A stretch of DNA of 64,000 bases from Panopea generosa (taxonomy: Eukaryota; Mollusca; Bivalvia; Adapedonta; Hiatellidae). A model generated the notes under the pieces. That model saw nothing but the letters and a program-made list of their open reading frames with translations. It was not told the DNA's origin and did not search any database. This document shows positions 5,510 through 32,800 of the stretch, one piece after another; positions within the stretch are counted from its first letter, which is position 1, and every line of letters begins with the position of its first letter. The stretch lies in assembly GCA_029582155.1 (NCBI GenBank), contig CM055902.1, positions 20,665,049 to 20,729,048 on the forward strand, read 5' to 3'. A program made the translations under genes and the position numbers.

Positions 5510-8500
5510 TCATATATCTTTTATCATTTCTCCAAAGTGTGCTAACGAGTCTATATAAAACTCGGGTATATGTTTTTCCTCTCCAGCTTGCCGCCGCGCC
5601 TCCACCGAGTCTAGATTATCAACACCTGAAATGAGATGCAGATACTTAACTAAGGAAACATGTATAGGCAATGCCTTCGTTTCACACTGACAAAATTGTA
5701 AGCTTCTTGCAGAAAACATTTGAAAATTTCAATCAAAGAGCATGTTAGTCTGGTCTGACCATTCTTGAATACTATGTTGCGACGTGTAGTATTGTCACAA
5801 AGCAAAATGGAAGGGTGTAATTTGAAGGACAGCAGGCCACCTGTGAATAATGAATAAGTTGGAACAGAAAATGTGATTTTATAGCATCGGATGTTGGCAT
5901 TGTGAATCCAAAGTATTTTCGGTTTATATCATTGCATAAATTGCATGAAAGACTGTTCGTCCTCTGACATACATTTATGATCAATCTGGTGAAAGAACGT
6001 AACTGATGGTATTATAATGCCTGATCACTAGGTCACAGATGGAATTCAATGCCTGATTACTGGGTCACGGATGATATTAAATGCCTGATCACTGGGTCAC
6101 AGATGATATTAAATGCCTGGTCACTGGGTCACAGATGGTATTCAATGCCTGATTACTGGGTCACAGATGGTATTCAATGCCTGATCACTGGGTCACAGAT
6201 GGAATTCAATGCCTGATTACTGGGTCACAGATGGTATTCAATGCCTGATCACTGGGTCACAGATGATATTAAATGCCTGATTACTGGGTCACAGATGGAA
6301 TTCAATGTCTGATTACTGGGTCACAGACGGTATTCAATACCTGATCACTGGAACACTGATGATATTAAATGCCTGATCACTGAGTCACAGATTGTATTCA
6401 ATGCCTGATCACTGTGTCACAGATTGTATTCAATGCCTGATCACTGTGTCACAGATTGTATTCAATGCCTGATCACTGTGTCACAGATTGTATTCAATGC
6501 CTGATCACTGGGACACTGATGGTATTAAATGCCTGATCACCGAGTCGCAGATTGTATTCAATGCCTGATCACTGTGTCACAGATGGTATTCAATGCCTGA
6601 TGACTGGGTCACACAGATGGTATTCGATGCCTGACCATTGGGTCACATACTAATCAAAACCTGATTCCCTGTCTACATTACCTTCTGAACTACTGAAGGA
6701 TAAATATATTGGAAATTGGTATTCCATATCCTTAATTTTTACTTATATCAATTGTGTATAACCTCTTTACCTGGTGATTCAGTTTTTATATTTCTTGATT
6801 TATATCAATATATACCATACCTGTGAGCACAAGAAGAGACCGGAGACCACAATTTCCTGCCATGGCTATATCAGTTTTTAAGCTGCAAAGTAAAAAACCA
6901 GTGTTTATTTTAGCACAATCATGGTGTAACAAATACAGTTAAACCTGTGTTAGTGGTTACCTCTACTAGCAACCACTTAGTTTTAGTCAACCTGTATTAA
7001 GCAGCCACATATCTTTAGGGGTAATTTTTGCTCTTTCCCTTGAGTGGCTGCTTAAGAAAGGTTTGACTGTTTTACAGTTAAATACAACATACAATTTAAA
7101 TAGCACTATTAATCTGATATCACTACGTCTTTTAAGTTGTTTTTTTGAAAAGGCAGTGTCCAAAAAACAAATGTTTATTAATTTGTTAACTTCAAGACGA
7201 TAAAACGCTAAAACTGAAAGACTTGAAAGTAAAAGATGTAATTTGCAGCTGTTTTGATATGAAATGTAAACTTTTTTTCCCCAACAATTTGTCTTTGTGA
7301 ACAATAAAACTTTCCCGAACTCAGAAATTTTGATTAAATGTTGTGAAGACAGTTTTTGTTGTTTGAATATGTAGTGTTATTTTTATGCCATCGAGGGCTA
7401 ACAGACAATCAGTTACCCTAACCACTGTTTCCTGGGATCCTGGAAGGCTAACCAGTACTCATGTACACCTATCTCTACAAGTAACTGATAACATTCGCAC
7501 TTTAATCAGCTGTGAGAGAGGAATGGCAATGAGACTAAATTCGTATATCAATAAATACAGAGTAGGCAGCAGAGATTCCGATTTCACAACCCCTGGATTA
7601 ATAGTCTGATGCATTATCGACTAAGCTATCAGGGCGCAGAGTTTGTAAATATTTATTTGTATTTCTATGTATTTGTTTATTTTTGGCTTGTTTCTTTTAA
7701 ACTACTAATTTATATTTAATTAGTCATAACCATTATTTTATAAATTCTTCTTTATTATTTTTAAAATAATAGTTTTGATAAAAAAACGGGCAAAAAACCT
7801 GTTAACTTACTAGTCGCCCACCATCATCGTTTTCTCTGCCTCCAGTTTATGTATCTTGTGCAGCAGATCAAACATGGTAGTTGCAGGTTTACCAACAATA
7901 ATCGGCTCTCTGCAGGCTGGAATCTTCACAGAAGCTACAATACTACCCGTACCTGAGCATAGACATTATGTTAGACTTTAATCTAAAACATGCAGTGTAC
8001 TTTGGTTCAGAGTATAAAATCATGCTTATGAATTATAAAAATAAATAAATCATCTCTTCTCTGTACAGTTGTCATTCAGTTTTTATTATACAATGGCTAT
8101 TGCTTGTGAGAAATGACATAACTAAATGTTTCATAAACAAAATGTAAGTTCATCATCTAACAAATACTAGCCAAACAAATGTAATTTCTAATGCAATATG
8201 TCAAACACTAGCAAAACAAATATATGTTTCCAAAGTAATCTGTCAAATATTAGCAAAATAAATGTATGTTTCCAAGTAATCTGTCAAATACTAGCCAAAC
8301 AAATGTATGTTTCCAAAGTTATCCGTCAAATACTTGAAAAACAAATGTAAATTTCTAATGCAATCTGTCAAATACTAGCCAAACAAATGTATGTTTCCAA
8401 AGTTATCCGTCAAATACTTGAAAAACAAATGTAAATTTCTAATGCAATCTGTCAAATACTAGCCAAACAAATGTATGTTTCCAAAGTTATCCGTCAAATA

Positions 8501-11500
8501 CTTGAAAAACAAATGTAAATTTCTAATGCAATATGTCAAATACTAGCAAAACAAATGTATGTTTCCAAAGCAACCGGTCAAATACTAACAAACAGATGTA
8601 TGTCATGAAGTCTTCACAGTTATAGTAATATTGCTTTGTACAGATATCAGTTGATTACAAAAATCTGCGAGGAGTTTATTTTGGATTGTGAGACATAAAT
8701 GTACATTTTAAATGAATTATGTTTGTTTGCTCACCTGGTATAACGACATCAGATTTTATCGGTAGGAAAGCATCTTCATTTGTAGCTACAAACAAGTTAT
8801 CAGGATTCCGAGCATATGTCGCTGCCTTTATCATCTTTCTGTAACTATGATGTGGGTCAAATCCCACAAGGACCCCCTTCACCTGTATAAAAGATAACTT
8901 GTCACATGATGTAAAGAGGTATACAACAACAGACTCATTTTTGTTGTTTTTTATAGGATTTAAAGCAATTAAAAAAGTTACAGATTATATACATGTATGT
9001 CAAGTATTGCTATTTTTATTGTCAGAGGAAGATCCCAGACGCGTATACATATTCTCACAATATATAGAGTCATTGGATCGAGACAGGCTCCAACCCAGCA
9101 CCTCAGCAGTAAGAGGTAGGTATATCACGACAAAGCCAGCTTGAGACAGTATTATAAGCACTGACACACCAGAGTATCGTGCCTTCCGCATGCAAGCTGG
9201 GTGCTCTAGCACTACACCTTCACTACAGTTTGAAGGAAGATGAACATGATAGAACAATATGAACATATAGAAAATTCACAATCTATAAACTTTTGGTACT
9301 TACCTCAGGATCCGGTTGCCATTCATGCTGAAACTTGGCCACATCATCAAAACCACTGTCGGTACTTGGTGGAGCATCTGCCTGAAAAATATCATACCTT
9401 CAAGCGGCAATTTCAATAAATTTTCAATGTACATGTATGTAATGCAATTATGAAATTAAAATAACTCAGAAGGTATTCAGACCATAGAAGTATTTTCAGA
9501 AAGGGGCACATGATAATTCAAGAGTCACAACTAAGACTTCAATTATTCTGTCAATTAAGGGATTATATCAGGAAATAATGCTATGAATGTCTTAAAAAAT
9601 GGAATTATTTTTAAAATGGATAAAATACATCTCATTATTATTATTAATTAAAATCTGAATTGTTTGGTATGTGAAATCCCCCAAAACGAGACAAAATCGA
9701 TATCTAAATAAGAGGGGTAAACTTGAAACGAAATCCCCATTCTATAAATAGAAAACACATGAATAATGCTTGGCGACATTCAGACTTTTTCTAAAATGAA
9801 ATAATTTTTATTACGTGTAAACCTTTATAATGGATCAAACTAAAATCAAATGAAATCATGCCACCAATTTAATCCATATTACAAAATATGTTGCAATTTT
9901 AAGCGGGAAATCTATTTAATCTAACCTAGGCATATTGCCATCCCTTTTCAATATATTATTTTGGCATGTAATAATATCTTTTTGGTTATAAAGGGTCAGT
10001 GAGTATATATAGACATCATATATTGGAGAAAAAATGCTTATAGCCAATTTTAAACTTTTGAAAATTCCTGATAAATTCCCTTTTAGAGCATGTCCAGGAT
10101 TTGAAGATAATGTAAGTTTGGTCAATGAAACATGTGGGTGCCAGAGTGCACACAAGGTCAATTAGTGTAAATTTTCATGATTCAGGGGCCATATTGGAGA
10201 AAAAATCTTATAGCCAATTTTAAAATTTTAAAAAATTCCTGATAAAATCCCTTTGAGAGCATTTCCAGGATTTTAAGATAATGTAAGTTTGGTCAATGAA
10301 ACATGTGGGTGCTAGAGTGCACACAAGGTCAAATAGTGTAAATGTTCATGATTCAGGGGCCATAACTCAGACATTAATTAATTTATTTGGCCAGATTGAG
10401 ATCTCCTCCAGACTTTGTCATTTTATAACTTCTGAATAAGTTTGTTTAATATCAAAATGTTGGTGCCAGGGCTGGAAAATTCCACTCATCTGCTCGCCAT
10501 GACGAATGAACATTTGCTCAGTACGAGTAAGATTTAAGAAACTATATAACCTCATATTTCTTTGATATAAAGCATTTAAATAAAAATGTTGGAAAGGGAG
10601 GAAGAGTGGTTATTTTAAGAAATTTCAAGCCCTGGGTACTATATGAACACAATCTAAAATCCAATGGATGACAGCTAGATCACAGACAATAGGGCGATCA
10701 GAATAACTCATGCTGAACCTAGCCTTCGGCTGGAACCAGCTGAATATAACATCTTGAAAATAAGAACAGTCTAATGGTTACAAGCATATTAATAGAATTT
10801 TAACTTTAATAAAAGTATAACCTACCCCCAATCCAATACAGTCTATACCTTCATAGCCTAGCTCTGTTGCCAAACTTGGATTTCCAACCATGTACAATTT
10901 ACCTTTAAACCCAACAGTTTTCAGGTAAAGAGCAGAAGCATAGGCTGTACACATAATGTTCTCCTGCAAACAGATGTTATACTCATATTGAACCTATACA
11001 AGCTGTACACATTATGTTATCCTGCAAACAGATGTTATACTCATATTGAACCTATACAGGCTGTACACATTATGTTGATACAGGCTGTACACATAATGTT
11101 TTCCTGAAAAACAGATGTTATACTCATATTGAACCTACACAGGCTGTACACATAATGTCCTCCTGCAAACAGATGTTATACTCATATTGAACCTACACAG
11201 GCTGTACACATAATATTCTCCTGCAAACAGATGTTATACTCATATTGAACCTATATAGGCTGTACACATAATGTTCGCCTGCAAACAGATGTTATACTCA
11301 CATTGAACCTACACAGGCTGTACACATAATGTCCTCCTGCAAACAGATGTTATACTCATATTGAACCTACACAGGCTGTACACATAATATTCTCCTGCAA
11401 ACAGATGTTATACTCATATTGAACCTATACAGGCTGTACACATAATATTCTCCTGCAAACAGATATTATACTCAAATTGAACCTATATAGACTGTACACA

Positions 11501-14500
11501 TAATGTTCTCCTGCAAACAGATGTTATACTCACATATAAATGAAAACATATCTCTGAATGGTCGTTTCAACTTTGAACATATTTTCAATAAAAAAAATGG
11601 GATAATATGATAAAACAAGAGACCCACGAGGGCCTGAATAGCTCTACTGGCAACAAGTGGAGATATGAACATTTCAGAGGAAACGATTTTTGTAAATTCA
11701 TTTTCAACAAATCTTCTTTAGTAGACCACCATTCAATACTACATGTTGTATATTTAAGGTCTAGGCCATGAACTTCCACAGAAAATGTTTATTAAAGTTT
11801 TGCTTAAAATGTGCTTATAAGCCCTGTGGCGGGGGCATTTGTGATCGAATAAAGTTGGTTAAGAACTTGTCCATGAACTTGTGGTTACATAATTGCTGCG
11901 CAAGTTTGGTTAAAGTTCAATGAAAAATGAAGGTGCTATTTGTGACTACAAAATTTTCCCTATATAATTCTATGTAAAACATTGACCTCTGTGGCTGTCC
12001 AAATTTGACCCCATGAATTGGACCTTAACAAACCTTCTAGTGGACCTAAATGCAATGCTAAATGTAAAATATCTAAGGTCTAGGCCTAAAACTTTCAGAG
12101 AAAATGTGTTTTTAAAATTTCGCTGAACTTTCAGAGTAAAATGTTTTTTAAAGTTTCACTTAAAATGTGCTTATACACACCCGGTAATCTCCCAAACCAT
12201 CACATAAATGTGATGCAATAAAATGTTCGGTAGCATTTCCGGTGATGGTCTGATCACAAGTAATATTGACAAAGGTGAGTCGTCTTCAATGTTTCCGTAT
12301 TTTTCTTGTGTTTAAGAAATAGATAGAGTAGTAGATTAATATTTAATTTTTAAAGAAGAAGTAACAAGGATTATTTATAACTGCCAGTAGGGACTACCCC
12401 ACAGAAGCACTTCCTTTTTCCACTAGTGGTTACTAAACCTGTTTTTTCCTGGGAGAGTCGACCACGTTTTGAAAATCATTTGAAAATGTGCAATGTATTC
12501 AAAATTTGTTATTTAATATGTGTATTATGTTGTATACTTGTTTGTATATACGAGTGTGACGGTATTTTTCGCCCAGATATGAGGAAAATTATATTACTAT
12601 GATTCAATTTGTTTGAGTATTTAGCAAATTAAAAATTGCCCATTTTCAATTCAATCTTGTGTTCAGTTTTATATCTCCCAGACTGCGGCGTGGTCTAGTG
12701 GTAGAGCGTCCGCTTCGCATGCGGAAGGTCGTGGGTTCAATCCCCGGCCGGGTCATACGAAAGACTTTAAAAATGGTACTAGAAGCTTCTTCGCTTGATG
12801 CTCAGCATTTAGAGGAGAGTTCTAGGTCTGGTCGACCCGGTGTCAGTATAATGTGACTGGGTGGGGTATCATACCATGTGTCTGCGGCATGATACTCCAG
12901 TGTGACAGCGCTTAAAATACTGTCTCAAGTAGACACCATCGCGATATGACTGAAAAATTGTTGAAAGCGACGCTAAACACCATACAACAATATATTCTCC
13001 CAGTACATAGTTACACAGAGTCTGTGTTAGTTGTGAACAAATGTTCATAAATAACATATCATTTTCTGAAGCAATGTACATTTTAATAACATTAAGGCCA
13101 TAATGAATTAATTGCTAGATTATTATCCCTGCCTGCCCCCTTAATTTTCATGCTGCCCGACCCTTTTTAGAATACTGCCTCAAGTAGACATTAATGCGAT
13201 ATGACTGAAAAATTGTTGAAACTGACGCTAAAGTTAAATACCAGTAAAACTCTGAATATTTCATAAAAGTCAGTGATTCCTTATTCAAGATATCTAGCTA
13301 ATTCATCATTTGGAGTGTAATAGAGTCAGCAACTGAATGTAAATCAAGTGTTAAAAACAGAAAACCTCACTACTTCTTTACAATAGTTCTCCTCACCATT
13401 GTGTCACATGATCAAACACAGACTGCTCCCAAAGCTGTTTGTTAATGTCAACAAAATATTTAGCGAGGCCGTGGTGTAGTGTATAGCATAATAGCTGCTC
13501 ACACCAGAGGTTATGGGTTCAATCCAAACTCAGACTATATAGTCTCTCAAACACAAAACCCAGTACTGATTCTACCCGGAAACGGTTCCAAAAGCTATTC
13601 TTGAAAGCTCTGCAGTGCTAAAATTCATAAAAAAATTTAAAAACTCAAAATTGCCAATTTTTAAATAATATTTAACAGCAAAAGTCTGGTTATAAAACAT
13701 AAGTTTTACATATTCTCTAATAAAGTCACAAAGAAATTGAAATGTTATTAATTTATTAAAGTTGTTTTTTAATGCAAATTAAAAAATTTCAGATTTTGAG
13801 ATTGAGTTTTACTTTAAGATTCAAAAGTGTGATGAATTTAAACCCAGAGCTTACATGTACATCATTGCCACAATCTAGCTCATATAAATTAAAATAAAGC
13901 AATACTCAGTATGTTAACTGTAAACTCACCATTCAGTTGACTACTGTTAGAAAATATTACACAGCAACATTAAGCAGTGTTGATCAATATTTTAACATAC
14001 TTTTTTTTATTGTTTTATATTTTTGTACTTATGACAATGTTTTGTAAACTGTTTGATCACAATTAACCAAAAGTTATACAGTTGACTGATCGACTGATTT
14101 GCTGAATGTTTAGCGTCATTTTTATACCACCAAGGGCTAACAGATGACCAGTTAGCCTAACCACTCTTTCCTGGGATCCTGGAAGGTTAACTAGTACTCA
14201 ACATAATCATCTTCGCAAGTAACTGATAACCCTTGGATCAATATTCAGACGCTTATGGGGCACGGAGTAATTCTTTCATTGTTGCATGTGAAATTTGATC
14301 TACAATTTACAACTGGTTAATCAATAATGTTTTTCAATTTATTTTTGATAGAAATTCCACGTATGTATATGAAGACTTCACTGAAAATTCACAATTCAAT
14401 GCGCAAGCAAATCTCAAGTTAATAAAAAATAAATAAAATTTATATAAAGAAGTTTAAATGATTGTCATACAGACTTTGAACTCCTACATGAAACTGCATC

Positions 14501-17500
14501 CTTTTATCCAAGCACAGTCAGGCCCGTCTAGCTCAGTCGGTAAAACATTTGATAATCCAGGGCCGTCCTTAAACAAGAGGCCCACGAGGGCCGGAGGACG
14601 CATTACTGACTCATAGTGGCCATAGCACTTTTTGAAATTTCGCAATATTTACCCTCTATCGGGGGGTCCACTTAACAACTTATGAATAAATACCCCCACC
14701 ACACCTATACTGAACAAAAACTTAATTGCTATGAAATGGAAATACTTTAAATTCCCATACCATTCATCTGTAAAACAAAAAATTGTCCCCGTACAGAACC
14801 TTTATACAACCCAGGCCCTTGATTTGTCAGAACTTCAAACACCCACTCTTAGGGATTTGTTATGAGCAGAAATGCTTTAGATTTTAAAAAGAACTTTTTT
14901 GTACACATGGATGCGAAAATGAAAAAAAATCAATTTTCCCTATAATATTCCTATGTAAAAGTCACATTACAGGGCCCCAATATATCCCAGCCCCTTGATA
15001 TGCAGAATCTTCAATCCTTGCTGAGGTAAGGATAATTTATATCAAATATCAACTAGTTTGACTGAAAGGTTATTTAGAGGAAGCTTTGTGAAAATTCCCA
15101 ATTTTAACCTTATTGCCCCACCCACCCCCTTTCCCCTTATGGAAATTCAATCCTCTTTATTGAACAAACTCAAATTTATTCTTACTAGACATATCTACAC
15201 AAATGGAAGAAAAAATAAGAATTTTCCATTTTCCCATAGTATTCCTATGTAAAACTCAAAGACCTCTTACAGGGCCTCTATACATCCCAGTGCCCCTTGA
15301 TTTGTACAAACTTGGAACTCTTAATCATAGGAATAATGTATATCAAATATGAACACATTTGACTGACTGGTTGCTGAGAATAAAATTTATGACAATGTTC
15401 AATTTTAACCATTTTATGACCCCACCTGGCCGCTTTTAGAAAGTCAATCCTTTGTATTGAACAAAATTTTATTTGTTATGACTAGAAGATAATTCAAAAC
15501 TCAAACTGAATTAAAAAAGTCATAAATAAATGAAAAAAAGAGAATTTTCTGTTTTTCAAAAGTATTCTTATATAAAACTCAAAGCCCCCTTACAGGGCCC
15601 CTATAAATACAAGATCTTGATTTGTATAAACTTTAAAACCATACTCACTGAGATAATCTATATCAAATATGAACAAATTTGACTGACTGGTTGTTGAGAA
15701 TATTTTTGAAACTGTTCTATTTGAACCTTTTTTTGAGCAACCCTGGCCTCTTATGGAATGTCAATTCTTCTTATTGAACCAAATTTTATTTCCTATGACT
15801 AGATGATACTTCAGAACTCAAACTGAATAATAATTTTGCCTAAATAGATGAAAGAATGAGAATTTTCCCATAGTATCCCTATGTAAAATTTTAAGTCCCT
15901 TTACAGGGCCCCTATAAATATTAGCCTCTAAATTCTTATCTGCAATCAAACCCCTACACATTGGGATAATTTATGCCAAATATGAACAAATCTGACTTAC
16001 TGGTTCTTAAGAAAAAGATTTTTGTAATTACCAATTTTTACCCATTTGGGGCCCCTCCTGACCCCTTAAGACGTTGGAACCCAGTCATTTTTACAAATCT
16101 GAACCTCCTTGACCAAACAATGCTTCTGTGAAAAAAAAATTTATGTTGATTATAATGACATTGTGTCCTCTAATTGAACCTTTGGGCGGGGTCATTTTTA
16201 ACCCCAGGGACACCATTTGAACAAATCCAACAGAATTATAGTTGGTTATCATACTATATAAACATTTTCAAAATCTGTTGGGCGGTTCATGAGAAGAAGA
16301 GTTTTTAAGTTTTAGACTATTTTAAGTTATGGTGGCCATCTTGAATTTCAGATCGAAAAAAATGTTCTGTATAGTCTCCTATGCTATAGAAACATCCATG
16401 TGAAGTTTGAGTTTTATTGGCCCAGTGGTTTCAGATAAAGTGCTGCTAACTGACGACAGATGATGGACGCTGACAATGGGCCATTGCATAAACCCTTCTG
16501 AAGTTTGAGTTTAATTGGCCTTGTGGTTTCAGAGAAAGTGCTGCTAATGGACGACAGACAATGTACAACGCATCATCGCATAAGCCCTTCTGGCCGTTGA
16601 CCAGTAGAGCTAAAAATAAATTGTTTGCTGTGCTCGTATCTATTCACTCAAAATTACAGTTACCCAAACTTTTTTATTGACTTTCAAACTTTTTTTTTTC
16701 ATGATTTCTGTCCATTTGTTTTAAAAAAGACTATGCAAATCGAAATCCCCCCCCCCTCCCCCCACACACAAAAACAAAGATTAGCTGCTAACTCACCCAC
16801 ATGAAAAAAACTGGGCCGGAGCACACCAAACAAACATTTTTTGAATTATGGCTCAGGGGTCCGCTAACATCATTGTCTGTGACAAATAGTTTTACAGCCA
16901 CAAATAAATATATGGGGAAGTAGTCCCAAGAAATATGATAAGGTGCACTGACCAATATTAAATTATGGAAATACTGTCTTAAAAAGACGAAAAACGTCAT
17001 ACAAACAAACAAATTCATCCAAGCAGTCATATTCATGAACTATGATAGTTTTTTAAGTCTTTACCTCTTCAGCCGGGAATCCCATATCTTTGCATTTCTC
17101 TACCACTTGTTTTCTTGTTTTACTGCTGTTGTTTGTGATGTAATATATCCTCTTGCCCTGAAAAATACACAACAGCACTGTTTACTGGAAATGAAACATA
17201 TTCATTTTTGTGTGCAGATATCTTGCTTAAAGGCTGTGAGTCAGGAATAATATGTCTAAAAAATACAATTTTGTGCAAAATGAATATAAAACATCTAACA
17301 TTCATATATTTATATCAACTAAAATATGAACGTTTTGAAATTTTAGATCTGCCCAAAAGTAACACAAATCGATATTTTAATCAAAGTTTGAAATCAAAAT
17401 GGAATATCCATCCTTAAAATAAATATTATGCACCTTGACATTTGGGCACAATCTCAGATAAATAAAATTCAACAATTGTGAAATGAATCTAACTGAAAAC

Positions 17501-20500
17501 AAACTGAAATCACGTGACACATGAATACATTGCAATTTTAAGCAGGAAATTTATTTGAGTGTAAAAATTGTCCATACTGTTAAAGTAATACAATTAAAAC
17601 AGAAAGAAGAATGACAAGCACAGTGGTAAAACATGGAGTAAAAATATTATTTATAAATTTTCATTAAACAGCTATTAGATAAAAGTGTCACATAACATTC
17701 GAGTCGAGGTGCTATTTTTTAAAACTGTAGCACATGGTCCAGTGGTAGAGCATCAGACCCAGGATCAAAGGGTAATAGGTTTGATCCTCTGTCACAACTG
17801 TGTTGTCTCCATGAGCAAGATACTCAATTATCAACACATGCTGAAGTTCTGGTTCTACCCATGAATACTTTGAGTGTAAAATGTCCAAATTGATTTACTT
17901 GTTTCACAATCAATGTAAAATAAATAAGTTTAAACAAACTGCAATTTCACTTGATGATGCATGAATCACACTGTCATATATGCTCGAATCATGTACCAAA
18001 TAAGCACTGAGTAACACTTCTAGTTATTTAAAGCTAAAACTAATAAATTGTACCAGTATACCGATTGTGAAACAAGTTTTAACAACTTTCAATACACCCT
18101 CGTCTAAGACAGACAAATTACATTTAGCAAATTAAATACTGGCTAAAGTGCCTTTCTCAAGTAGCCAACATCTGAAACTGCTTAGGTGTCAAAACCACCA
18201 CTAAATCATTGGTCTAATGCTTTACCGCTAGAAGTACCCAACAAAATCTAAAAATTAAATGGAAAAACATAGATAATTACATTTCCTGCTAACATGGCAT
18301 GTATCGTATTGCCGAAATTTTGATGAAGGTCAATTTTCTCTGAAATGTCTTTGCTTATTCCTCAAAATTGTACAAAGCTTATTACGAAACTTGGAACTGC
18401 TCTCCGGTTCATTTTCCTGCGTAAGGCCAGAACAGTGTTGATTTTGAGAGGCCATCCTGTCTACCTTCGGACTGAACAGAAACTTTTTACATGAGTGACC
18501 AACACCTGTCCATCCACTACTGCCCTGCTTATGCAATCTATGTTTGACCTGCTGTACCGGATATTTTGTTGTATTGTGTTTTGCGTCACTTTCAACAATT
18601 TATCAGCCATATAACAAAAGTGTCTATTTGAGACTGTATTCTTAGCGCTACCACACCGGAGTATCATGCCACAGACACATGCATGATATGATACTCCACC
18701 AAGTCACATTATACCAACACCGGGCGGACCAGACCTAGAGCTATCCTATTAATGCAGAGGGCCATTTTTCAAGTTTTTTCATATAACCGAGCCGGGGATC
18801 GAACCCATGCTACAGCTGAATAAACATTTTTGAAATGCATACATACCAATTTTTTAAGTTTCTGCAATGCTTCACTACACCCAGGAATGGCAACGTTTCC
18901 ATGGTACAACACACCTGTAAATATACAACAAACTATCACAGTCAGTTACAGAAACACTAGCATATCCTAACAGTGCCTGCTTGAGACAGTTTTCTAAGCA
19001 CTGACACATTGGAGTATCATGCCACAGACACATGGTATGATAACCCATCCAGTCACATTATACTGACACCAGGCCAAATTGAGCTATAGAACTATCCTTT
19101 AAATGCTGAGTGCCAAGTGAGAAGGTTTCTATTACCAATCCATTTTTCAAGTATTTGGTATAACCCGGCCGGGAAAGGACCCATGGCCTTCCGCATGCTA
19201 GGGGAATGCTATACCCATAGACCATTTGGTCCTGCATTTTGGTGCAAGTTGTTCATAAGTGTGCATAGCTTGCAGTTACATGCATGTAACATTGCATAAG
19301 TGTGCATAGCTTGTAGTTACATTCATGGAACTTGGGATACATTCGTATGCTTGTACTCTGTGGCAGTATGTAACATATCAGGCGTATAAATTAAATCATA
19401 AACAGTGTCAAAATATTCTGCACATGAAGAAGTCTAGAAGTTTTACCCCTTTCACAACTATGAACAAATTTTATGAATTTTTGGGTAGCTGCAAACAAAT
19501 GAAGCTTAGCACAAACACTTTTGTGTACTGGTATTTAATTACATGTAATGTAGTGGATAAGGTCATCTGAAAATGCAGCATGGTTTTAGGGTAGAACTAC
19601 CCATAACACATTTATGGAACAATTTTAATGACTCTGGGGAAATTAGTTTAAAAATATGAAGCTCAACGCAAAAAGTCATCTAAAATTTTGTAGACTAAGT
19701 CAATGGTTCGTAAACGCCTGAAAAAATCTGCCTGTTTTGAGTATTACTACACCAAACACAAATCTATCAGGATTTTTCAAAATTTTATAATTGGCTAAAA
19801 AAAAATTTTTTTAATATACCATACATGCCTATATAACATACTCACTGACCCATATTGCCAACAGGATATCTATTCAAACATGCCAAAATAATATATTGAA
19901 ATAGAATTTTCTATCTTGGGCTATGTCCCTAGGTTAGACTAAATTAGATTTCCCACTTAAAATTGCACAATTTGTGATGTATTAAATGAGTCACATAGTT
20001 CCATTTTGATTTCAATTTTATCTGTTATACACATTTACACAAAGTACCAGTAAATATTGTTTCATTTTAGAAAGAGTCTGAATGATGATGTGAAGGTCAT
20101 CAAGCAGTATTTAAGTGCTGTCTATTTTTAGAATGGGGATTTTGTTTCAAGTTTACCAATCCAATATAAATATCAGTTTTGTCACATTATGGTGGATTTG
20201 ACATTTCAAAACATTTGGATTTCATTCATTAATGATAATGAGATGATTTTTATCCATTTTTAAAAATTGTTTTTTTTTCAGAACATTTATAGCATTTTTT
20301 CCTGATATACTTCCATTAATAATTAAAATGGACTTAAATGATTAGTGTAAGGTTTCTAGTTTGACTATGCCAGTGCTGTGTTTTTTTGTGCTTATGTGTG
20401 TATTGGAACATATTCATGAATTTGATGTAAATAAAGTTGAGTAAAAGATAAAATTGATCAACCAATAATTTGTAATCTTTTTATTTGACATGGGTCACAA

Positions 20501-20625
20501 GACAATAATCTATGTTATGCTTTAATGAATTGTTTATCAATAGGGCCATAATAAATTAATTGCTAGATTATCATCTCTGCCAGCCAACCACCTTATTTTC
20601 ATGCTGCCCCCGACCCTTTTTTTCA

Positions 20626-20656
<31 letters not shown>

Positions 20657-22476
20657 AATAATAAAATCCTCCCCCTCCCCCTTTTTAACAAAAGTTGGAT
20701 GATAATCTAGCAATTAATTTATAATGGCCTTAAAGTAGTTATTACACAAAAAGAGCCAATAAAACATAATTTCCATCAAAATGACTTATCAATTAATTTT
20801 TAATTGACCCCTGTATATTTTAAATAAGGTCTTCATCTATGCATGATTTTCATTCTTTTTTCCTCTGAGTGTATATTGGATCATCACAACTGGTTAATCA
20901 GCATGCAATTTACACTATGACTGTTAAATTTAATTAAATTCCACAAAAAATGACTCTAATTATCATTGGCAAACATCAAATCTGTTAAAATATATCCTTG
21001 TTCCATCTTTCATGTATGCTCCAAAACAACTTGTTGAATCATTAAAAGTCAAATTTCAAATCACTTTGACAGAAAAATTGGGTTTTATTGGCCAATTTCG
21101 TGATCTGTCTTTTTAGTAGCACTGTCTTCAGTAATAATTACTTTTATTTAGCTCAAACATAGAATATACATATTCCAAACAAGCTTTAAAACAGATTAAA
21201 AGGGAGTGGCCGGTTTTATGAAAAAAATAATAAATGTGTGACCAGTTTAACTTTGTTTGGTCCGGTGTGACTTGTTTAGATCCCAATACTGGTATGATGT
21301 GTGGGCTTAGTAGCAGCTCTGGAGGCTTGTCCAAAAGGCCTGAACTGTCTGGGTAGTGGTAGTGTTCATAATGTTCTCTTCTAACTGGTTCATCTTAAAC
21401 ACAGTTCTCACTAATTACTAATTATTCAGTATCGGGACTTTACACTGTAACAAACAGTTTGAATGGTTGATAATTTGAATTTCTTAAATATTTCTAATTT
21501 CAAAGTTGGTAAATGTCATTGGTTTTACCTTATGTTTAGGTTTTTGCCTGACTAGATAATCACACTGTGGCACAGGTATCGACTGCCTACACCATATCCA
21601 CCCCCAACCCAATATCTTGAACAAAAAGGTCAGCCTGTCAAATTCACGGTGCTGTTGAAGAGTTGGTAGGTTGAACTCTTGCAGCATGCTGGTGACACAG
21701 CCCAAGTGGCATAACTTTTATTCTGTCTTAACAATGCATACTGCATACTGTTACCCCAGTGTAGACCTTCGGCCATGGTGTTAACAAGATATGGATTACA
21801 GGATAATTTTTGAAGAAAGGTGTTGCTCAGTTGATAATAGTGAGAAGACTTTTAACTGGTATGCATACCGAGTGTACAATATTTCTTCTCATCAATAGGT
21901 CGGTCCATTTTTAAAGTTCCTGTTGGTAATTTTGGAGTAAGGCATGATCTTGGCTGATCGAGATTGTTTGATATCAAAACAATTGTCAGCACAAAGATGG
22001 ACTACGGAGGTTACCCACTCAGAAAGATTATTAATGTGGAATGCCAAGAAAAATGGGCCATGGTATTGACACTATCTATACCTAAATTAATAGGAGTACA
22101 AAATGTAATTAACCGAGAAATTCTTTTAAAAAAACAACTTAATTAGACATGTCTTTTGTTATTTAGTGATCACAATAATATCCAATTGTAACTAATTACT
22201 GTTTTGTTTTTACACTTGTGTACTAAATTTTAGTAGGTATTACATAATCTACTCCGGCGACAGTTAACGCGAAAACCGATAACAAACTCTGTGTTGCGTG
22301 TATTTCTATATTTGTATACATTGACGAACGAGCAGCTATGGAAATAAAACACGGATCTCACCATCACAATCAAACATAAAGTTGTCTACATTCCTAATCA
22401 CTTCATCTGCCGATGACTGGTCCAAAAGTCGCATTGTTTTGATATTTTTTAATGCCCGAAGTCCGTTTCGTATCAT
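5510..22476 (-). CDS. PGP: phosphoglycolate / glycerol-3-phosphate phosphatase, complete nine-exon gene
   Basis: A HAD-superfamily phosphatase that hydrolyses 2-phosphoglycolate and glycerol-3-phosphate, normally cytosolic. Exons in order on the - strand: 22476-22362, 18914-18847, 17157-17065, 10963-10826, 9381-9304, 8882-8735, 7952-7811, 6882-6821, 5625-5510. They join in frame to 960 bases (319 residues plus TGA), very close to vertebrate PGP. All introns are GT-AG. Motif I is FDCDGVL (nucleophile D36, acid/base D38), split by intron 1. Motif II is YITNNSSKTR (about 67-76). The cap region includes VGFDPHHSY (about 170-178). Motif III is IIVGKP (K235). Motif IV is VGDYLKTDI (D260, D265). The end PEFYIDSL matches the family C-terminus. 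One oddity is Tyr261 where animal relatives usually have Arg (GDR); its codon is split by intron 7. The first 18 residues are basic with no acid, so weak organelle targeting, or a start at Met15, is possible. The introns are packed with repeats. Confidence 0.95.
6006..6655. repeat. 32-bp minisatellite in PGP intron 8
   Basis: About 20 tandem copies of a unit close to 'tgcctgatcactgggtcaca' followed by 'gatggtattcaa' (about 32 bp). Variants change ggaat/ggtat/gatat and gggtc/gtgtc, and the right end is more diverged. It fills over half of the last PGP intron and has no coding potential. Confidence 0.9.
6937..7071. mobile_element. MITE-like element, copy 2 of 2, in PGP intron 7
   Basis: The left end 'agttaaacctgtgttagtgg' and right end 'aagaaaggtttgact' are inverted relative to each other, with the same middle block as 4838-5011 ('cctgtattaagcagcc'). 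Confidence 0.55.
7375..7625. repeat. dispersed SINE-like repeat in PGP intron 7
   Basis: Shares 'gggctaacagacaatcagtt', 'tttcctgggatcctggaagg' and 'caagtaactgataac' with 14105-14275. Its right end, read on the - strand, resembles a tRNA (A-box-like 'tgatagcttagtcgataatg' then B-box-like 'ggggttgtgaaat'). This supports a tRNA-derived retroposon inserted in - orientation. Confidence 0.5.
8140..8610. repeat. 42/84-bp minisatellite in PGP intron 6
   Basis: Two related 42-bp monomers alternate: one with 'tatgtttccaaagttatccg', one with 'taaatttctaatgcaatctg'. Both continue 'tcaaatact' and share 'caaatgta'. The 84-bp pair is repeated nearly identically about three times, with diverged single monomers at the edges. 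Confidence 0.85.
9138..9221 (-). repeat. internally deleted SINE remnant
   Basis: It carries the tail-side segment 'cttgagacagtattataagc' and 'gagtatcgtgcc' joined directly to the tRNA-head segment 'ccttccgcatgcaagc', skipping the SINE centre. It is the same family as the full copies at 12682-12991 and 53198-53517, in reverse orientation, in PGP intron 5. Confidence 0.6.
9480..10020. repeat. dispersed repeat in PGP intron 4, inverted copy at 19830-20330
   Basis: Blocks such as 'gggaaatctatttaatctaa', 'caatatattattttggcatg' and the run around 'gaaatccccattctataaat' recur reverse-complemented at about 19830-20330 in intron 1. A further piece is at 17500-17560. This is a dispersed element of at least 500 bp. 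I saw no ORF and could not fix the ends. Confidence 0.5.
10010..10370. repeat. two tandem copies of a ~170-bp block in PGP intron 4
   Basis: Copies at about 10022-10190 and 10195-10365 share 'cttatagccaattttaaa', 'taatgtaagtttggtcaatg' and 'gattcaggggccata'. Differences are few, so the duplication is fairly recent. Confidence 0.75.
10943..11535 (-). repeat. 59-bp minisatellite made from the PGP exon 4 splice acceptor
   Basis: About ten copies, one of them truncated near 11060, of a 58-59-bp unit. On the - strand each unit reads ctgtttgcag, then coding-like bases for ENIMCTA or close variants (DNIM, EDIM, ANIM), then tgtataggttcaatatga and on to the next unit. The first copy is the true junction: the acceptor and first codons of exon 4 (exon start 10963). 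Copies diverge from exon 4 after the ACAGCC codons and run into a TGA, so splicing to one would truncate the protein. Copy starts fall near 10943, 11001, 11083, 11142, 11200, 11258, 11316, 11373, 11431 and 11490. Confidence 0.92.
11617..12180. repeat. dispersed repeat beginning 'aagagacccacgagggcc'
   Basis: The start matches the element at 14572 ('aacaagaggcccacgagggc'). The body has the same style of repeated paragraphs ('attttccctatataattc', 'ctatgtaaaacattgacc'). An internal duplication around 'aactttcagagaaaatgtgt' and 'aactttcagagtaaaatg' is visible. The right boundary is uncertain. Confidence 0.45.
12682..12991 (+). repeat. full-length tRNA-derived SINE, copy A
   Basis: The head is tRNA-like: A box 'tggtctagtggtagagcgtc', an anticodon-loop region like tRNA-Ala(CGC), B box 'gggttcaatcc'. 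The body contains 'gatgctcagcatttagagg', 'gtgactgggtggggtatcat' and a tail 'acgctaaacaccatacaaca'. The flanks share a near-perfect duplication, ATATCTCCCAG (12671-12681) and ATATTCTCCCAG (12992-13003). The overall plan resembles molluscan tRNA-derived SINEs such as RUDI; that name is from memory and needs a library search. It is not a functional tRNA gene, because the acceptor ends do not pair. Confidence 0.85.
13095..13162. mobile_element. 5' half of the MITE at 20544, truncated
   Basis: 'ggccataatgaattaattgc' and 'ttttcatgctgcccgaccct' match the left half of 20544-20731. The element stops where a SINE tail fragment (13163-13230) begins. Confidence 0.6.
13163..13230 (+). repeat. SINE 3' tail fragment
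   Basis: 'cctcaagtagacattaatgc' and 'gatatgactgaaaaattgtt' match the 3' part of the SINE at 12682-12991. The head is absent. Confidence 0.6.
13464..13620 (+). repeat. tRNA-derived SINE-like repeat
   Basis: The A-box-like 'ggtgtagtgtatagca' and B-box-like 'gggttcaatccaa' are spaced as in a tRNA. They are followed by 'gattctacccggaaacggtt' and 'ttgaaagctctgcag', which also occur reversed at 1925-2066. It lies in PGP intron 3. Confidence 0.5.
14105..14275. repeat. dispersed SINE-like repeat
   Basis: Shares 'accaagggctaacagatgac', 'tttcctgggatcctggaagg' and 'gcaagtaactgataaccctt' with 7375-7625 and, reversed, with 960-1185. Confidence 0.5.
14521..14565 (+). repeat. tRNA-like fragment
   Basis: 'gcccgtctagctcagtcggt' followed by an anticodon-arm-like 'catttgataatccag' looks like the 5' half of a tRNA or tRNA-derived SINE. 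There is no T arm, so it is not a tRNA gene. Confidence 0.45.
14572..16615. repeat. 2-kb dispersed element with internal ~300-bp paragraphs, PGP intron 3
   Basis: It starts 'caagaggcccacgagggcc' and ends 'ctggccgttgaccagtagag'. Inside, a paragraph of about 300 bp recurs four or five times with strong divergence: 'ttcccatagtattcctatgt', 'tacagggcc', 'tatcaaatatgaaca', 'tttgactgactggttg'. A final part carries 'gtttgagttttattggccc' twice. No ORF of transposase or reverse-transcriptase type was seen. It may be non-autonomous, but the class is unknown. Confidence 0.6.
17722..17935 (+). repeat. tRNA-derived SINE, second family
   Basis: The tRNA-like head has 'ggtccagtggtagagcatca' and 'ataggtttgatcctc'. 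The body has 'catgagcaagatactcaatt', and the tail is 'caatcaatgtaaaataaata'. The same order is found at 35390-35597. It lies in PGP intron 2. Confidence 0.65.
18571..18809 (-). repeat. tRNA-derived SINE, truncated copy C
   Basis: Read on the - strand it has the same order as 12682-12991: 'gccggggatcgaaccc' (as + strand), 'gaccagacctagagctatcc', 'aggagtatcatgcc'-type blocks and the tail 'ttgcgtcactttcaacaatt'. The tRNA head is cut short. Confidence 0.75.
18976..19225 (-). repeat. tRNA-derived SINE, diverged copy D
   Basis: Contains 'gcttgagacagttttctaag', 'gagtatcatgccacagacac', 'ccagtcacattatactgaca' and head-derived 'ccttccgcatgcta'. Same family as 12682-12991, reversed, in PGP intron 1. 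Confidence 0.7.
19590..20470. repeat. dispersed repeat in PGP intron 1, inverted relative to 9480-10020
   Basis: 'gccaaaataatatattgaaa', 'ctaggttagactaaattaga' and 'agaatggggattttgtttca' are reverse complements of parts of 9480-10020. The left and right limits are uncertain. Confidence 0.45.
20544..20731. mobile_element. MITE with 32-bp terminal inverted repeats
   Basis: The left end 'ggccataataaattaattgc' plus 'tagattatcatc' is matched by the reverse complement of the right end with one mismatch over 32 bases. The short core is rich in A and C runs ('ctgcccccgaccc', poly-A, 'ctccccctccccc'). It has no ORF. A truncated relative is at 13095-13162. Confidence 0.85.
20732..22361 (-). other. remainder of PGP intron 1, no recognised feature
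   Basis: AT-rich, unique-looking sequence. No exon is needed here because exons 1 and 2 join in frame across the catalytic DxD motif. Short ORFs lack splice or family support. Confidence 0.5.
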
Positions 22477-22673: not shown

Positions 22674-25600
22674 CTAGGCTGGACATACTAGGCAACTTTC
22701 TGGACATACTAGGCAACTTTCAGAGCATACTAACCACTTTCTTGACATACAAGGCAACTCTTTGGATATACTAGGCAACAGTCAGGACATACAAGACAAT
22801 TGCCTGGACATACTAGGCAATTTCTGATTAGGCAACTGTCTTGGCATACTAGGCAACTTTCTGGACACACTAGGCAACTATCTAGGCATACTCGGTAATT
22901 GTCTGGACATACCAGGTAACTTTCTGAACATAAGTAAGGCAACTTTCTGGACATACTAGGCAACTTTCTCACATACTAGGCAACTGTCATGGCATACTAG
23001 GAAACTTCCTGGACATACGAGGCAACGTTCTAGGCAACAGACTGAACATACAAAGCAACTGTCTGGACATACTGGGCAACTGTCTGGATATATTGGGCAA
23101 CTGTCTCGATATACTGGGCAACTGTCTGGACATACTGGGAAACAATCTGGACATACAATGCAACTGTCTATACATACTGGGCAACTGTCTGAACAAACTG
23201 GGAAACAGTCTAGAGGTACAAGGCAACTGTCTGGACATACTGAGCAACTGTCTTGATATACTTGGCAACTGTCTGGACATACTGGGAAACAGTCTGGACA
23301 TACTTACGCAACTGCCTGGGCATACTGGGCACTTGTCTAGATATAACGGGCAACAGTCTGGACATACTGGCCACATGCCTGGATATACTGGGCAACTGTC
23401 TGGACATATTGAGTAATTGTATGGACATACTGGGCAACTGTCCGGACATACGGGGCAACTGTCTGGACATACCAGGCAACTGCTTGGACGTACTAGGCAA
23501 CTGTCTGGACATACTGGGCAGTCTTCTGGATATACCGGGCAACTGTCTGGACATACTTGGCAACTGTCTGGACATACTACGCAACTGTCTGGACATACTG
23601 AGCAACTGTTTGGACATACTTGACAACCGTATGGACATACTGGGCAGCTGTCTGGATCTACTGGACATACTAGGCAAATGTCTGGACATACTGGGCAGCT
23701 GTCTGGATATACCGGGCAACTGTCTGGACATACTTGGCAACTGTCTGGACATACTAGGCAACTGTCTGGACGTACTGAGCAACTGTCTCGACATACTTGA
23801 CAACTGTCTGGACATATTAGGCAACTGTCTGGACATGTTAACCATCTGTCTGGACGTATAAGGTAACTGTCTGGACATACTAGGTAACTGTCTGGACATA
23901 CTGAGCATCTGTCTGGACATTGTAGGCAACTGTGTGGACATACAGCACAACTGTCTGGACATACTGGGCAACTGCCTTGGTATACTGGGCAACTGTCTAG
24001 ACACACAGGACAACTGCCATCTCGACATAACTGCACTACTGCCTGGACATACAAACAACTGTCTGGACATACAAGCAACTGCCTGGACATACTAGGTAAC
24101 TGCCTGGACATACAAGGCGTCTGTCTGAATATACTTGGCAACTGTCTGGACATACTAGGTAACTGCCTGGACAAACAAGGCGTCTGTCTGAATATACTGG
24201 GCAACTGTCTGGACATACTAGGTAACTGCTTGGACAAACAAGGCGTCTGTCTGGATATACTGGGCAACTGTCTGGACATACTAGGTAACTGCCTGGACAA
24301 ACAAGGCGTCTGTCTGAATATACTGGGCAACTGTCTGGACATACTGGACAACTGTCTGGACATACTAGGTAACTGCCTGGACAAACAAGGCGTCTGTCTG
24401 AATATACTGGGCAACTGTCTGGACATACTGGACAACTGTCTGGACATACTAGGTAACTGCCTGGACAAACAAGGCGTCTGTCTGAATATACTGGGCAACT
24501 GTCTGGACATACTGGGCAACTGCCTGGACAAACAAGGTGTCTGTCTGGACATACTGGGCAACTGTCTGGACATTGTAGGTAATTGCCTGGACAAACAAGG
24601 CGTCTGTCTGAATATACTGGGCAACTGTCTGGACATACTAGGTAACTGCCTGGACAAACAAGGCGTCTGTCTGAATATACTGGGAAACTGTCTGGACATA
24701 CTGGGCAACTGCCTGGACAAACAAGGTGTCTGTCTGGACATACTGGGCAACTGTCTGGACATTGTAGGTAACTGCCTGGACAAACAAGGCGTCTGTCTGA
24801 ATATACTGGGCAACTGTCTGGACATACTAGGTAACTGCCTGGACAAACAAGGCGTCTGTCTGAATATACTGGGCAACTGTCTGGACATACTAGGTAACTG
24901 CCTGGACAAACAAGGCGTCTGTCTGAATATACTGGGCAACTGTCTGGACATACTGGACAACTGTCTGGACATTGTAAGTAACTGCGTGGACAAACAAGGC
25001 GTCTGTCTGGACATACTGGGCAACTGTCTGGACATACTAGGTAACTGCCTGGACAAATTGGGCGTCTGTCTGAATATACTGGGCAACTGTCTGGACATAC
25101 TGGGCAACTGTCTGGACATTGTAGGTAACTGCCTGGACAAACAAGGTGTCTGTCCGAATATACTGGGCAACTGTCTGGACATACTATGTAACTGCCTGGA
25201 CAAACAAGGCGTCTGTCTGAATATACTGGGCAACTGTCTGGACATACTAGGTAACTGCCTGGACATACCAGGTAACTGCCTGGACAAACAAGGCGTCTGT
25301 CTGGACATACCGGGCAACTGTCTGGACATACTAGGTAACTGCCTGGACAAACAAGGCGTCTGTCTGGACATACTGGGCAACTGTCTGGACATACTAGGTA
25401 ACTGCCTGGACAAACAAGGTGTCTGTCTGAATATACTGGGCAACTGTCTGGACATACTAGGTAACTGCCTGGACAAACAAGGCGTCTGTCTGGACATACT
25501 GGGCAACTGTCTGGACATACTAGGTAACTGCCTGGACAAACAAAGTGTCTGTCTGAATATACTGGGCAACTGTCTGGACATACTAGGTAACTGCCTGGAC

Positions 25601-28600
25601 AAACAAGGCGTCTGTCTGAATATACTGGGCAACTTTCTGGACATACTAGGCAACTGCTTGGACAAACAAGGCGTCTGTCTCGACATACTGGGAAACTGTC
25701 TGGACATACTAGGTAACTGCCTGGACAAAAAAGGCCTCTGTCTGAATATACTGGGCAACTGTCTGGACATACTAGGTAACTGCCTGGACAAACAAGGCGT
25801 CTGTCTGGACATACTGGGCAACTGTCTGGACATACTAGGTAACTGCCTGGACAAACAAGGCGTCTGTCTGAATATACTGGGCAACTGTCTGGACATACTA
25901 GGTTACTGCTTGGACAAACAAGGCGTCTGTCTGGATATACTGGGCAACTGTCTGGACATACTAGGTAACTGCCTGGACAAACAAGGCGTCTGTCTGAATA
26001 TACTGGGCAACTGTCTGGACACATGGGCAACTGTCTGGACATACTAGGTAACTGCCTGGACAAACAAGGCGTCTGTCTGAATATACTGGGCAGCTGTCTG
26101 GACATACTAGGTAACTGCCTGGACAAACAAGGCGTCTGTCTGAATACACTAGGCAACTGTCTGGACATACTAGGTAACTTGGACAAACAAAGCGTCTGTC
26201 TGAATATACTGGGCAACTGTCTGGACATACTGGGCAACTGTCTGGACATACTAGGTAACTGCCTGGACAAACAAGGCGTCTGTCTGAATATACTGGGCAA
26301 CTGTCTGGACATACTAGGTAACTGCTTGGACAAACGTGGCGTCTGTCTGGACATACTGGGCAACTGTCTGGACATACTAGGTAACAGCCTGGACAAACAA
26401 GGCGTCTGTCTGAATATACTGGGCAACTGTCTGGACATACTAGGTAACTGCCTGGACAAACAAGGCGTCTGTCTGAATATACTGGGCAACTGTCTGGACA
26501 TACTGGACAACTGTCTGGACATTGTAGGTAACTGCCTGGACAAACAAGGCGTCTGTCTGGACATACTGGGCAACTGTCAGGACATACTAGGTAACTGCAT
26601 GGACAAACAAGGCGTCTGTCTGAATATACTGGGCAACTGTCTGGACATACTGGGCAACTGTCTGGACATTGTAGGTAACTGCCTGGACAAACAAGGTGTC
26701 TGTCTGAATATACTGGGCAACTGTCTGGACATACTAGGTAACTGCCTGGACAAACAAGGCGTCTGTCTGAATATACTGAGCAACTGTCTGGACATACTAG
26801 GTAACTGCCTGGACATACTAGGTAACTGCCTGGACAAACAAGGCGTCTGTCTGGACATACCGGGCAACTGTCTGGACATACTAGGTAACTGCCTGGACAA
26901 ACAAGGCGTCTGTCTGGACATACTGGGCAACTGTCTTGACATACTAGGTAACTGCCTGGACAAACAAGGCGTCTGTCTGAATATACTAGGCAACTGTCTG
27001 GACATACTATGTAACTGCCTGGACAAACAAGGCGTCTGTCTGAATATACTGGGCAACTGTCTGGACATACTAGGCAACTGCTTGGACAAACAAGGCGTCT
27101 GTCTGGACATACTGGGCAACTGTCTGGACATACTAGGTAACTGCCTGGACAAAAAAGGCCTCTGTCTGAATATACTGGGCAACTGTCTGGACATACTAGG
27201 TAACTGCCTGGACAAACAAGGCGTCTGTCTGGACATACTGGGCAACTGTCTGGACATACTAGGTTACTGCCTGGACAAACAAGGCGTCTGTCTGAATATA
27301 CTAGGCAACTGTCTGGACACATGGGCAACTGTCTGGACATACTAGGTAACTGCCTAGACAAACAAGGTATCTGTCTGAATATACTGGGCAACTGTCTGGA
27401 CATACTGGACAACTGTCTGGACAGACTAGGTAACTGCCTGGACAAACAAGGCGTCTGTCTGGACATACTGGGCAACTGTCTGGACATACTAGGTAACTGC
27501 CTGGACAAACAAGGCGTCTGTCTGAATATACTGGGCAACTGTCTGGACATACTAGGTAACTGCCTGGACAAACAAGGCGTCTGTCTGAATATACTGGGCA
27601 ACTGTCTGGACATACTGGACAACTGTCTGGACAGACTAGGTAACTGCCTGGACAAACAAGGCGTCTGTCTGAATATAATGGGCAACTGTCTGGACATACT
27701 AGGTAACTGCCTGGACAAACAAGGCGTCTGTCTGAATATACTGGGCAACTGTCTGGACATACTGGACAACTGTCTGGACATACTAGGTAACTGCCTGGAC
27801 AAACAAGGCGTCTGTCTGAATATACTGGGCAACTGTCTGGACATACTAGGTAACTGCCTGGACAAACAAGGCGTCTGTCTGAATATACTGGGCAACTGTC
27901 TGGACATACTAGGTAACTGCCTGGACAAACAAGGCGTCTGTCTGAATAAACTGGGCAACTGTCTGGACATACTGGACAACTGTCTGGACATACTAGGTAA
28001 CTGCCCGGACAAACAAGGCGTCTGTCTGAATATACTGGGCAACTGTCTGGACATACTAGGTAACTGCCTGGACAAACAAGGCGTCTGTCTGAATATACTG
28101 GGCAACTGTCTGGACATACTATGTAACTGCCTGGACAAACAAGGTGTCTGTCTGAATATACTGGGCAACTGTCTGGACATACTAGGTAACTGCCTGGACA
28201 AACAAGGCGTCTGTCTGGACATACTGGGCAACTGTCTGGACATACTAGGTAACTGCCTGGACAAACAAGGTGTCTGTCTGGACATACTGGACAACTGTCT
28301 GGACATACTAGGTAACTGCCTGGACAAACAAGGCGTCTGTCTGAATATACTGGGCAACTGTCTGGACATACCGGGCAACTGTCTGGACATACTAGGTAAC
28401 TGCCTGGACAAACAAGGCGTCTGTCTGAATACACTAGGCAACTGTCTGGCCATACTAGGTAACTGCCTGGACAAACAAGGCGTCTGTCTGAATATACTGG
28501 GCAACTGTCTGGACATACTGGGCAACTGTCTGGACATACTAGGCAACTGTCTTGACATAACGGGCAACTTTCTTGACATACTAGGCAACTGTCTTGACAT

Positions 28601-32300: not shown

Positions 32301-32800
32301 AGCAAGCCAAAATGTTGCAAGGCAACACCGCCCTGTCACAGAAGATAAACTAATACCTACACAGCAAGCCAAAATGTTGCAAGGCAACACCGCCCTGTCA
32401 CAGAAGAGAAACGAATACCTACACAGCAAGCCAAAATGTTGCAAGGCAACACCGCCCTGTCACAGAAGAGAAACTAATACCTACACAGCAAGTCAAAATG
32501 TTGCAAGACAAACACCGTCCTGTCACAGTAGAGAAACTAATACCTACACAGCAAACCAACATGTTGCAAGACATCACCGCCCTGTCACAAAAGAGAAACT
32601 AATACCTACACAGCAAGCCAAAATGTTGCAAGGCAACACCGCCCTGCCACAGAAGAGAAACGAATACCTACACAACAGGTCAAACTGTTACACTACAACA
32701 CCGCCCTGTCACAGAAGAGAAACGAATGCCTACACAGCAAGCCAAAATAATTCAAGACAACACCGCCCTGTCACAGAAGAGAAACGAATAACTACACCGT
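29342..32800. repeat. 3.5-kb satellite array, 62-bp monomer
   Basis: About 55 copies of a 62-bp unit: 'aaaatgttacaagacaacac', 'cgccctgtcacagaagagaa', 'actaatacctacacagcaag', 'cc'. It abuts the 21-bp array with no unique DNA between. Diagnostic variants show an internal duplication of about 1.03 kb: 'acctacacagaaagccaaa' at 29552 and 30582, 'ataaacaacaagcc' at 29801 and 30830, 'cttataagagaaact' at about 30193 and 31159. The right third has 'gttgcaaggcaacacc' variants, a separately homogenised block. Confidence 0.93.

Follow-up and report, generated by a model that had tools for sequence, protein, structure and literature searches.

A splice acceptor preceded by its own copies: a mirage-type minisatellite at the intron 3/exon 4 junction of a PGP-type phosphatase gene in Panopea generosa

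How is the right splice acceptor chosen when nine close copies of it lie ahead in the same intron? This question is raised by a stretch of 64,000 nucleotides from the bivalve Panopea generosa (contig CM055902.1; G000:C9:20665049-20729048 in an assembly, GCA_029582155.1, of 1,474,161,289 bases and 39 contigs), referred to here as the window and numbered from its first base, in which a gene for a PGP-type phosphatase carries a minisatellite at the 3'-end of its intron 3. In the array, copies of the intron 3/exon 4 junction follow one another head to tail, and the authentic junction is the last member. Our preferred explanation, to which we assign a probability of roughly three in four, is that of a locally born, near-neutral minisatellite of unstable copy number that belongs to the rare class known as mirages in amphioxus, with splicing to exon 4 still relying mainly on the exon's own acceptor. 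The elements needed for the argument are the following, with the copies upstream of the authentic junction termed decoys:

10943 to 11532, minus strand: mirage-type minisatellite, comprising nine decoys and, as far as it matches them, the authentic intron 3/exon 4 junction
11475 to 11532, minus strand: decoy unit 1, acceptor AG ends at 11511, translation ENIMCTVYIGSI followed by a stop
11417 to 11474, minus strand: decoy unit 2, acceptor ends at 11453
11359 to 11416, minus strand: decoy unit 3, acceptor ends at 11395
11301 to 11358, minus strand: decoy unit 4, acceptor ends at 11337, donor-like AAT/GTGAGT at its end with 11302 as last exon base (the slash marks the splice boundary here and below)
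11243 to 11300, minus strand: decoy unit 5, acceptor ends at 11279
11185 to 11242, minus strand: decoy unit 6, acceptor ends at 11221
11127 to 11184, minus strand: decoy unit 7, acceptor ends at 11163
11044 to 11126, minus strand: decoy unit 8, 83 bp, in which the exon piece is partly repeated; its acceptor, TTTTTCAG, ends at 11104, and translation would read through 20 residues
10986 to 11043, minus strand: decoy unit 9, acceptor ends at 11022
10826 to 10963, minus strand: authentic PGP exon 4, 138 nt, same acceptor before it (AG ends at 10964) and GTAGGT after it
10964 to 17064, minus strand: PGP intron 3, with the array at its 3'-end
17065 to 17157, minus strand: PGP exon 3, donor at 17065/17064, ends in frame

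Between 11532 and 10986, intron 3 holds nine copies of the junction, and the tenth member, the authentic junction, runs on into exon 4; one of several overlapping Tandem Repeats Finder rows describes the repeat as 11080-11532 with a period of 58, 7.8 copies, 93% matches and a score of 778. Each unit opens with TGAGTATAA and joins ~22 nt from the end of intron 3 to ~21 nt from the start of exon 4; it closes with a ~15-base tail of junction sequence (TATATAGGTTCAATA and variants) that has no counterpart downstream in exon 4. Eight decoy units measure 58 bp, and unit 8 reaches 83 bp because part of its exon piece is doubled, making it a fused unit. Agreement on the intron side is close: the 22 intron bases of seven of the nine decoys are those of the real site, unit 2 exhibits one substitution and unit 8 reads TTTTTCAG, with the acceptor sequence of the real site, CTGTTTGCAG/G, being present in 8/9 decoys and replaced by CTGTTTTTCAG/G in the remaining one. 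When the units were compared by eye from the unit list, rather than by a tree, units 3 and 6 of the window version (version A of array and gene) proved identical and A4 and A7 one base apart, as were B3 and B6 identical in version B, a sister on the same contig C9; the edge units A1/B1 and A9/B10 carry variants seen in no other decoy. Inner units are thus alike and edge units distinct, as under concerted evolution. A first-pass annotation of this stretch had described a minus-strand array with these limits, made up of the real junction and nine decoys, along with an exon 3 donor at 17065/17064, and had derived the repeat from the exon 4 junction; all of this was recovered, the unit being intron 3 end plus exon 4 start and the true junction its last member. 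Its unit length of 58-59 bp fits the eight 58-bp units and fails for fused unit 8.

The host gene is, as predicted from its sequence, a PGP-type phosphatase that is complete on the minus strand. The protein scores 251.2 bits against TIGR01452 (PGP_euk), above the curated cut-off of 201.95, and its best PDB match is the glycerol-3-phosphate phosphatase 7po7 (E 8.1e-37; 199-residue part, whole length aligned), in agreement with the identity given by the first-pass annotation.

5510 to 22476, minus strand: PGP gene, nine coding exons, 319 aa, without inner stop
22476-22362, 18914-18847, 17157-17065, 10963-10826 and 9381-9304, minus strand: PGP coding exons 1-5
8882-8735, 7952-7811, 6882-6821 and 5625-5510, minus strand: PGP coding exons 6-9

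Tandem repeats make up 32% of the window, and three arrays of at least four units, this array included, cover 9.9% of the gene span. With such coverage, free placement is expected to put 1.6 of the 16 splice junctions into an array, so that one junction found in an array is not surprising: the unusual point is that an array extends over a working acceptor. The eight other PGP exons, searched with 60-nt flanks, yielded nothing in the window but short matches (E 0.009 or worse), and no Rfam family reached its gathering score there.

How well the decoys could pass for acceptors was estimated using two rough acceptor matrices, the first approximate, the second built on 7 sites. In both, 7/9 decoys score exactly as the real acceptor, unit 2 lies near it or above it (3.65 vs 3.74 for the real site with the first matrix; 5.7 vs 4.81 with the second), and unit 8 falls below the real site (3.46 and 1.06). 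Ranked among the 352 AGs of intron 3 with the first matrix, the decoys and the real site occupy positions 8-18, with 7/307 AGs outside the array scoring at least as high as the real site; with the second matrix they occupy positions 2-11, apart from unit 8 at 30, and 2/307 outside AGs reach the score of the real site. The description of the decoys as plausible acceptors upstream of the real one is supported. If joined from exon 3, all nine would stop prematurely and exon 4 would measure 196 to 685 nt, compared with 138 nt via the real acceptor; the ~12 residues before the stop that had been predicted apply to 8/9 decoys, with unit 8 reading through 20. Local RNA structure, considered as a reason for the real acceptor winning, is not decisive: the unpaired probability over positions -20..-1 is 0.40-0.46 for the decoys and 0.43 for the real site with a shorter span (0.32-0.43 and 0.38 with a longer one), and for the AG alone the values are 0.13-0.65 and 0.63 (0.09-0.79 and 0.42). 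With the shorter span, the real AG is more open than that of 7/9 decoys and is exceeded by units 1 and 5. Recursive splicing was ruled out, with CAG/GT occurring in none of the decoys in the unit list.

Has the array changed in number, and has the gene remained intact beside it? A whole-genome DNA search for the array, in which simple repeats and very common words were skipped, gave three matches at two loci, namely the window array and a sister at C9:20297192-20297853, 379 kb away, whose main match is 97% identical. As only these two loci were found, the idea of a mobile satellite was abandoned. The window region and B are colinear, with gaps and many indels, across the 100 kb of B that were compared, and an outer probe at 20560001 has a match (89%) 385.6 kb away, at 20174403; the duplicate region as a whole pairs C9 20.17-20.36 Mb with 20.56-20.74 Mb at offsets of ~379-386 kb. 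B may be an allele placed in tandem (an un-purged haplotype) or a paralogue arising from segmental duplication. It contains ten decoys, compared with nine in A (11 vs 10 members including the real junction): eight members are in register when counted from the 3'-end, and the difference lies on the 5'-side. The PGP coding sequences of A and B differ at 4/960 nt and 1/319 residues, and the divergence of introns 3 and 4 is ~2%. With coding sequences that are nearly identical and intact, both versions look functional despite the array, and the change from nine to ten decoys indicates that unit number alters on the time scale of ~2% intron divergence; a difference in copy number, as anticipated by the first-pass annotation, is seen between the two versions in this one assembly. 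At codon 95, exon 4 has ATT in the window and ATA in the sister, and decoys A9 and B10 also have ATA. This is a hint that array and coding exon may exchange sequence, and a hint at most since one silent site is concerned.

Structures of this type have a precedent in amphioxus, for which Canestro 2002 is said to be the original Adh paper. The 'mirage' minisatellites reported there concern Adh3 and the globins BflGb6 and BflGb9 (PMC3087553), to which repeats in troponin C and PGBD5 were added (PMC3902484). They are described as tandem minisatellite copies across an intron-exon boundary with splice signals in the copies (PMC3087553; PMC3902484), and the present array shares this anatomy: its units span the boundary, the authentic junction is a member and the copies carry splice signals. 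Unit number reportedly varies between amphioxus haplotypes (6 and 3 in BflGb6); the nine and ten decoys counted here belong to A and B, which may be alleles or paralogues within a single assembly. The two cases differ in that the host is a mollusc rather than a cephalochordate, with mostly 58-bp units and nine or ten decoys, and in that 19/19 decoys keep CAG/G whereas many, but not all, of the amphioxus copies are said to retain splice signals; furthermore, splicing was tested in amphioxus, whilst the Panopea array is known from its sequence. A donor-side counterpart is human IFI6 (6-16), where a minisatellite at a splice junction supplies several sites: two downstream units are reported to serve as donors, resulting in three mRNAs (Turri et al. 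1995, as given in PMC4526556). There, the repeated site is a donor and the mRNAs are said to encode isoforms, whereas here it is an acceptor and all nine decoys lead to a stop. The decoy exons of retained introns in OGT, ARGLU1 and SF3B1 likewise place cryptic intronic sites ahead of the real acceptor and introduce premature stops, but are described as cassette exons, OGT's having been tested by mutation and antisense (PMC12017769), in contrast to a tandem array with one predicted donor-like site. Human segmental duplications also exhibit minisatellite units at exon-intron boundaries that vary between paralogues (PMC2812944); those repeats lengthen exons or introns or reportedly make novel introns, whereas the exon is unchanged here. 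An intronic minisatellite is described for an abalone gene, with no splice junction mentioned in the available part of that report (PMC6905558), and no mollusc mirage was recognised in the literature searched for molluscs and bivalves, a search that was not exhaustive. The array thus appears to extend mirage minisatellites from amphioxus to molluscs. Muscle-type myosin from this genome likewise indicates a mollusc, probably a bivalve: a 286-residue query, joined from five exon pieces of a locus (L042) chosen by eye among ten for its resemblance to muscle myosin, scores 492-498 bits against PDB entries such as 1dfk, 1b7t and 2ec6 (scallop), 486 against 3i5f (squid), at most 448 against Myosin-7 (vertebrate) and 433 against 3jbh (arthropod), among the 60 of 97 matches listed.

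In the origin that we favour, a stretch straddling the end of intron 3 and the start of exon 4, with ~15 nt of junction sequence, would have been duplicated in tandem at the locus, and the units would then have spread by unequal exchange or slippage to give nine decoys in A and ten in B; we propose that the array has been kept because its cost is small. Most splicing of exon 4 would use its own acceptor; the probable reason, inferred from established knowledge of splicing, is exon definition, in which the exon 4 donor is paired with the acceptor closest to it. RNA joined to a decoy would likely be degraded by nonsense-mediated decay, since the stops precede further exon junctions. As for the order of events, the exon 4 residues NIMCTAY have a gapless alignment with the solved PGP, TAY being identical and a three-residue gap lying one residue into exon 4: the gapless alignment suggests that the exon 4 sequence is older than the array.

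Three observations speak against near-neutrality. All 19 decoys of A and B keep CAG/G. Substituted columns number 1/22 on the intron side (17 decoys, A8 and B2 being left out due to indels), 8/21 on the exon side (all 19 decoys) and 3/15 in the tail (17 decoys, without fused A8 and B9), and the intron side differs from the exon side with a Fisher p of 0.009 and from all 36 other columns with 0.021, which hints at constraint. Finally, between 10964 and 11453, a stretch that takes in units 3-9 and part of unit 2, A and B differ at 5/489 positions, which is less than in the remainder of intron 3 (114/4516, p 0.04). Against this, the split into intron and exon columns was picked after the array had been seen, and p becomes 0.21 once the two indels count as variable columns. 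The divergence of the array is also not clearly lower than that of the adjacent 1 kb of intron 3 (19/1000, p 0.27) or of intron 4 (29/1427, p 0.17); intron 5 is lower still (2/421), the remaining stretch at 11454-11535 shows 0/82 with two gaps, and windows of 500 bases range from 0 to 8.6%. From A/B divergence it is thus not clear that the array is better conserved than the sequence beside it, and the comparison of sequences makes no convincing case for constraint on the decoys.

Together with the assignment to the mirage class, the donor-like site of unit 4 goes beyond what had been annotated. One base differing from most units produces AAT/GTGAGT with 8/9 donor letters, donor scores here being counts of consensus letters rather than the output of a splice-site model. 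Among the 382 GTs of intron 3, two reach 8/9 and 14 reach 7 or more; the donors of PGP exons 1-8 have 6 to 8 of 9, with 6/9 for that of exon 4. Exon 4 also holds an internal AAG/GTAAAT at position 10903 with 8/9 letters, exceeding the exon's own donor. Within the array, unit 4 aside, no GT lies above 5/9, and TATGTGAGT at the upstream edge has 7; unit-by-unit microexons via TAG/GTTCAA were discarded, as this site has 4/9 donor letters by hand count. Paired with the acceptors of units 1-4, the unit 4 site would delimit candidate cassettes of 209, 151, 93 and 35 nt, all with stops, making poison cassettes of 35-209 nt possible. The sister array has the identical site in the in-register unit B5; as A and B share a recent origin and the site arises from a single A-to-G change, its presence in both says little.

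From these features a splicing brake dependent on copy number could be constructed, in which the decoys, above all the acceptors of units 1-4 with the unit 4 donor, act as decoy or poison exons: intron 3 would be held back or poison RNA made, with PGP output dropping as decoy number rises. The equality of seven decoy acceptors with the real one in both matrices, along with the close or higher value of unit 2, is compatible with such a brake, as are a donor-like site that beats the true exon 4 donor and recurs in B5, four cassettes that all stop, and the report that decoy exons hold back introns in human OGT and other genes (PMC12017769). Amphioxus mirages are, however, reported to splice normally and to leave regular splicing undisturbed (PMC3087553; PMC3902484), the decoys show no robust signal of selection, and the donor-like site common to A and B carries little weight. 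With its footing in the anatomy of the array, a brake is in our view unlikely, and the same considerations tell against the tunable splicing or decay switch suggested in the first-pass annotation. Somewhat less likely again is the specific form in which an acceptor-copy minisatellite with one gained strong donor sets the brake on a housekeeping phosphatase by copy number, more units giving less PGP; if it were true, passive decoys would have become a poison cassette through the A-to-G change that created the GTGAGT of unit 4.

Two further readings are far less probable than a brake. That the unit number is an assembly artefact, or the sister the other haplotype placed in tandem, would agree with colinearity of A and B with gaps and indels over 100 kb and with the 89% probe match at 385.6 kb, as un-purged haplotypes could show; yet the internal variants of the units follow the same order, in register, in A and B, which is not expected of inflated copies, and B as an allele would not weaken the array itself. 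We therefore hold this to be very improbable. Slightly more so is the reverse polarity, where exon 4 took its edge from a satellite that was there first and the acceptor was shifted as a result: ATA at codon 95, common to the sister exon 4 and decoys A9 and B10, suggests that sequence may pass between them, and the three-residue gap adjoins the junction, but the gapless NIMCTAY with identical TAY argues for an exon that was already in place, and the genome search gave no further locus of the unit beyond A and B.

The locus amounts to a natural experiment on ten acceptors, the real one and nine decoys; seven of the decoys share its final 22 intron bases in full. As position, downstream exon bases and distance to the next donor vary among the ten, junction reads would measure exon definition directly, and the array would serve as a natural test of how the right splice site is chosen among ten near-identical ones.

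Other repeats were noted in and around the gene. A 6.6-kb array with a 21-bp unit lies at 22679-29340, followed by arrays with 61-62-bp units at 29344-32797; the former sets in ~200 bp ahead of the start codon of PGP (22476), such that the likely promoter region is satellite. PGP intron 8 contains a 32-bp minisatellite with 20 copies (6005-6647), whose sister matches (20290829-20292536) span ~1.7 kb, and this span suggests that copy number seems changed there too. At 50358-51868 there are about three 486-bp repeats with 99% matches, a very recent triplication. For a ~450-bp element from the neighbourhood (L030 1-454), 214 matches were reported in the genome search; among the matches listed, nearly all are to this part, often in tandem and on many contigs.

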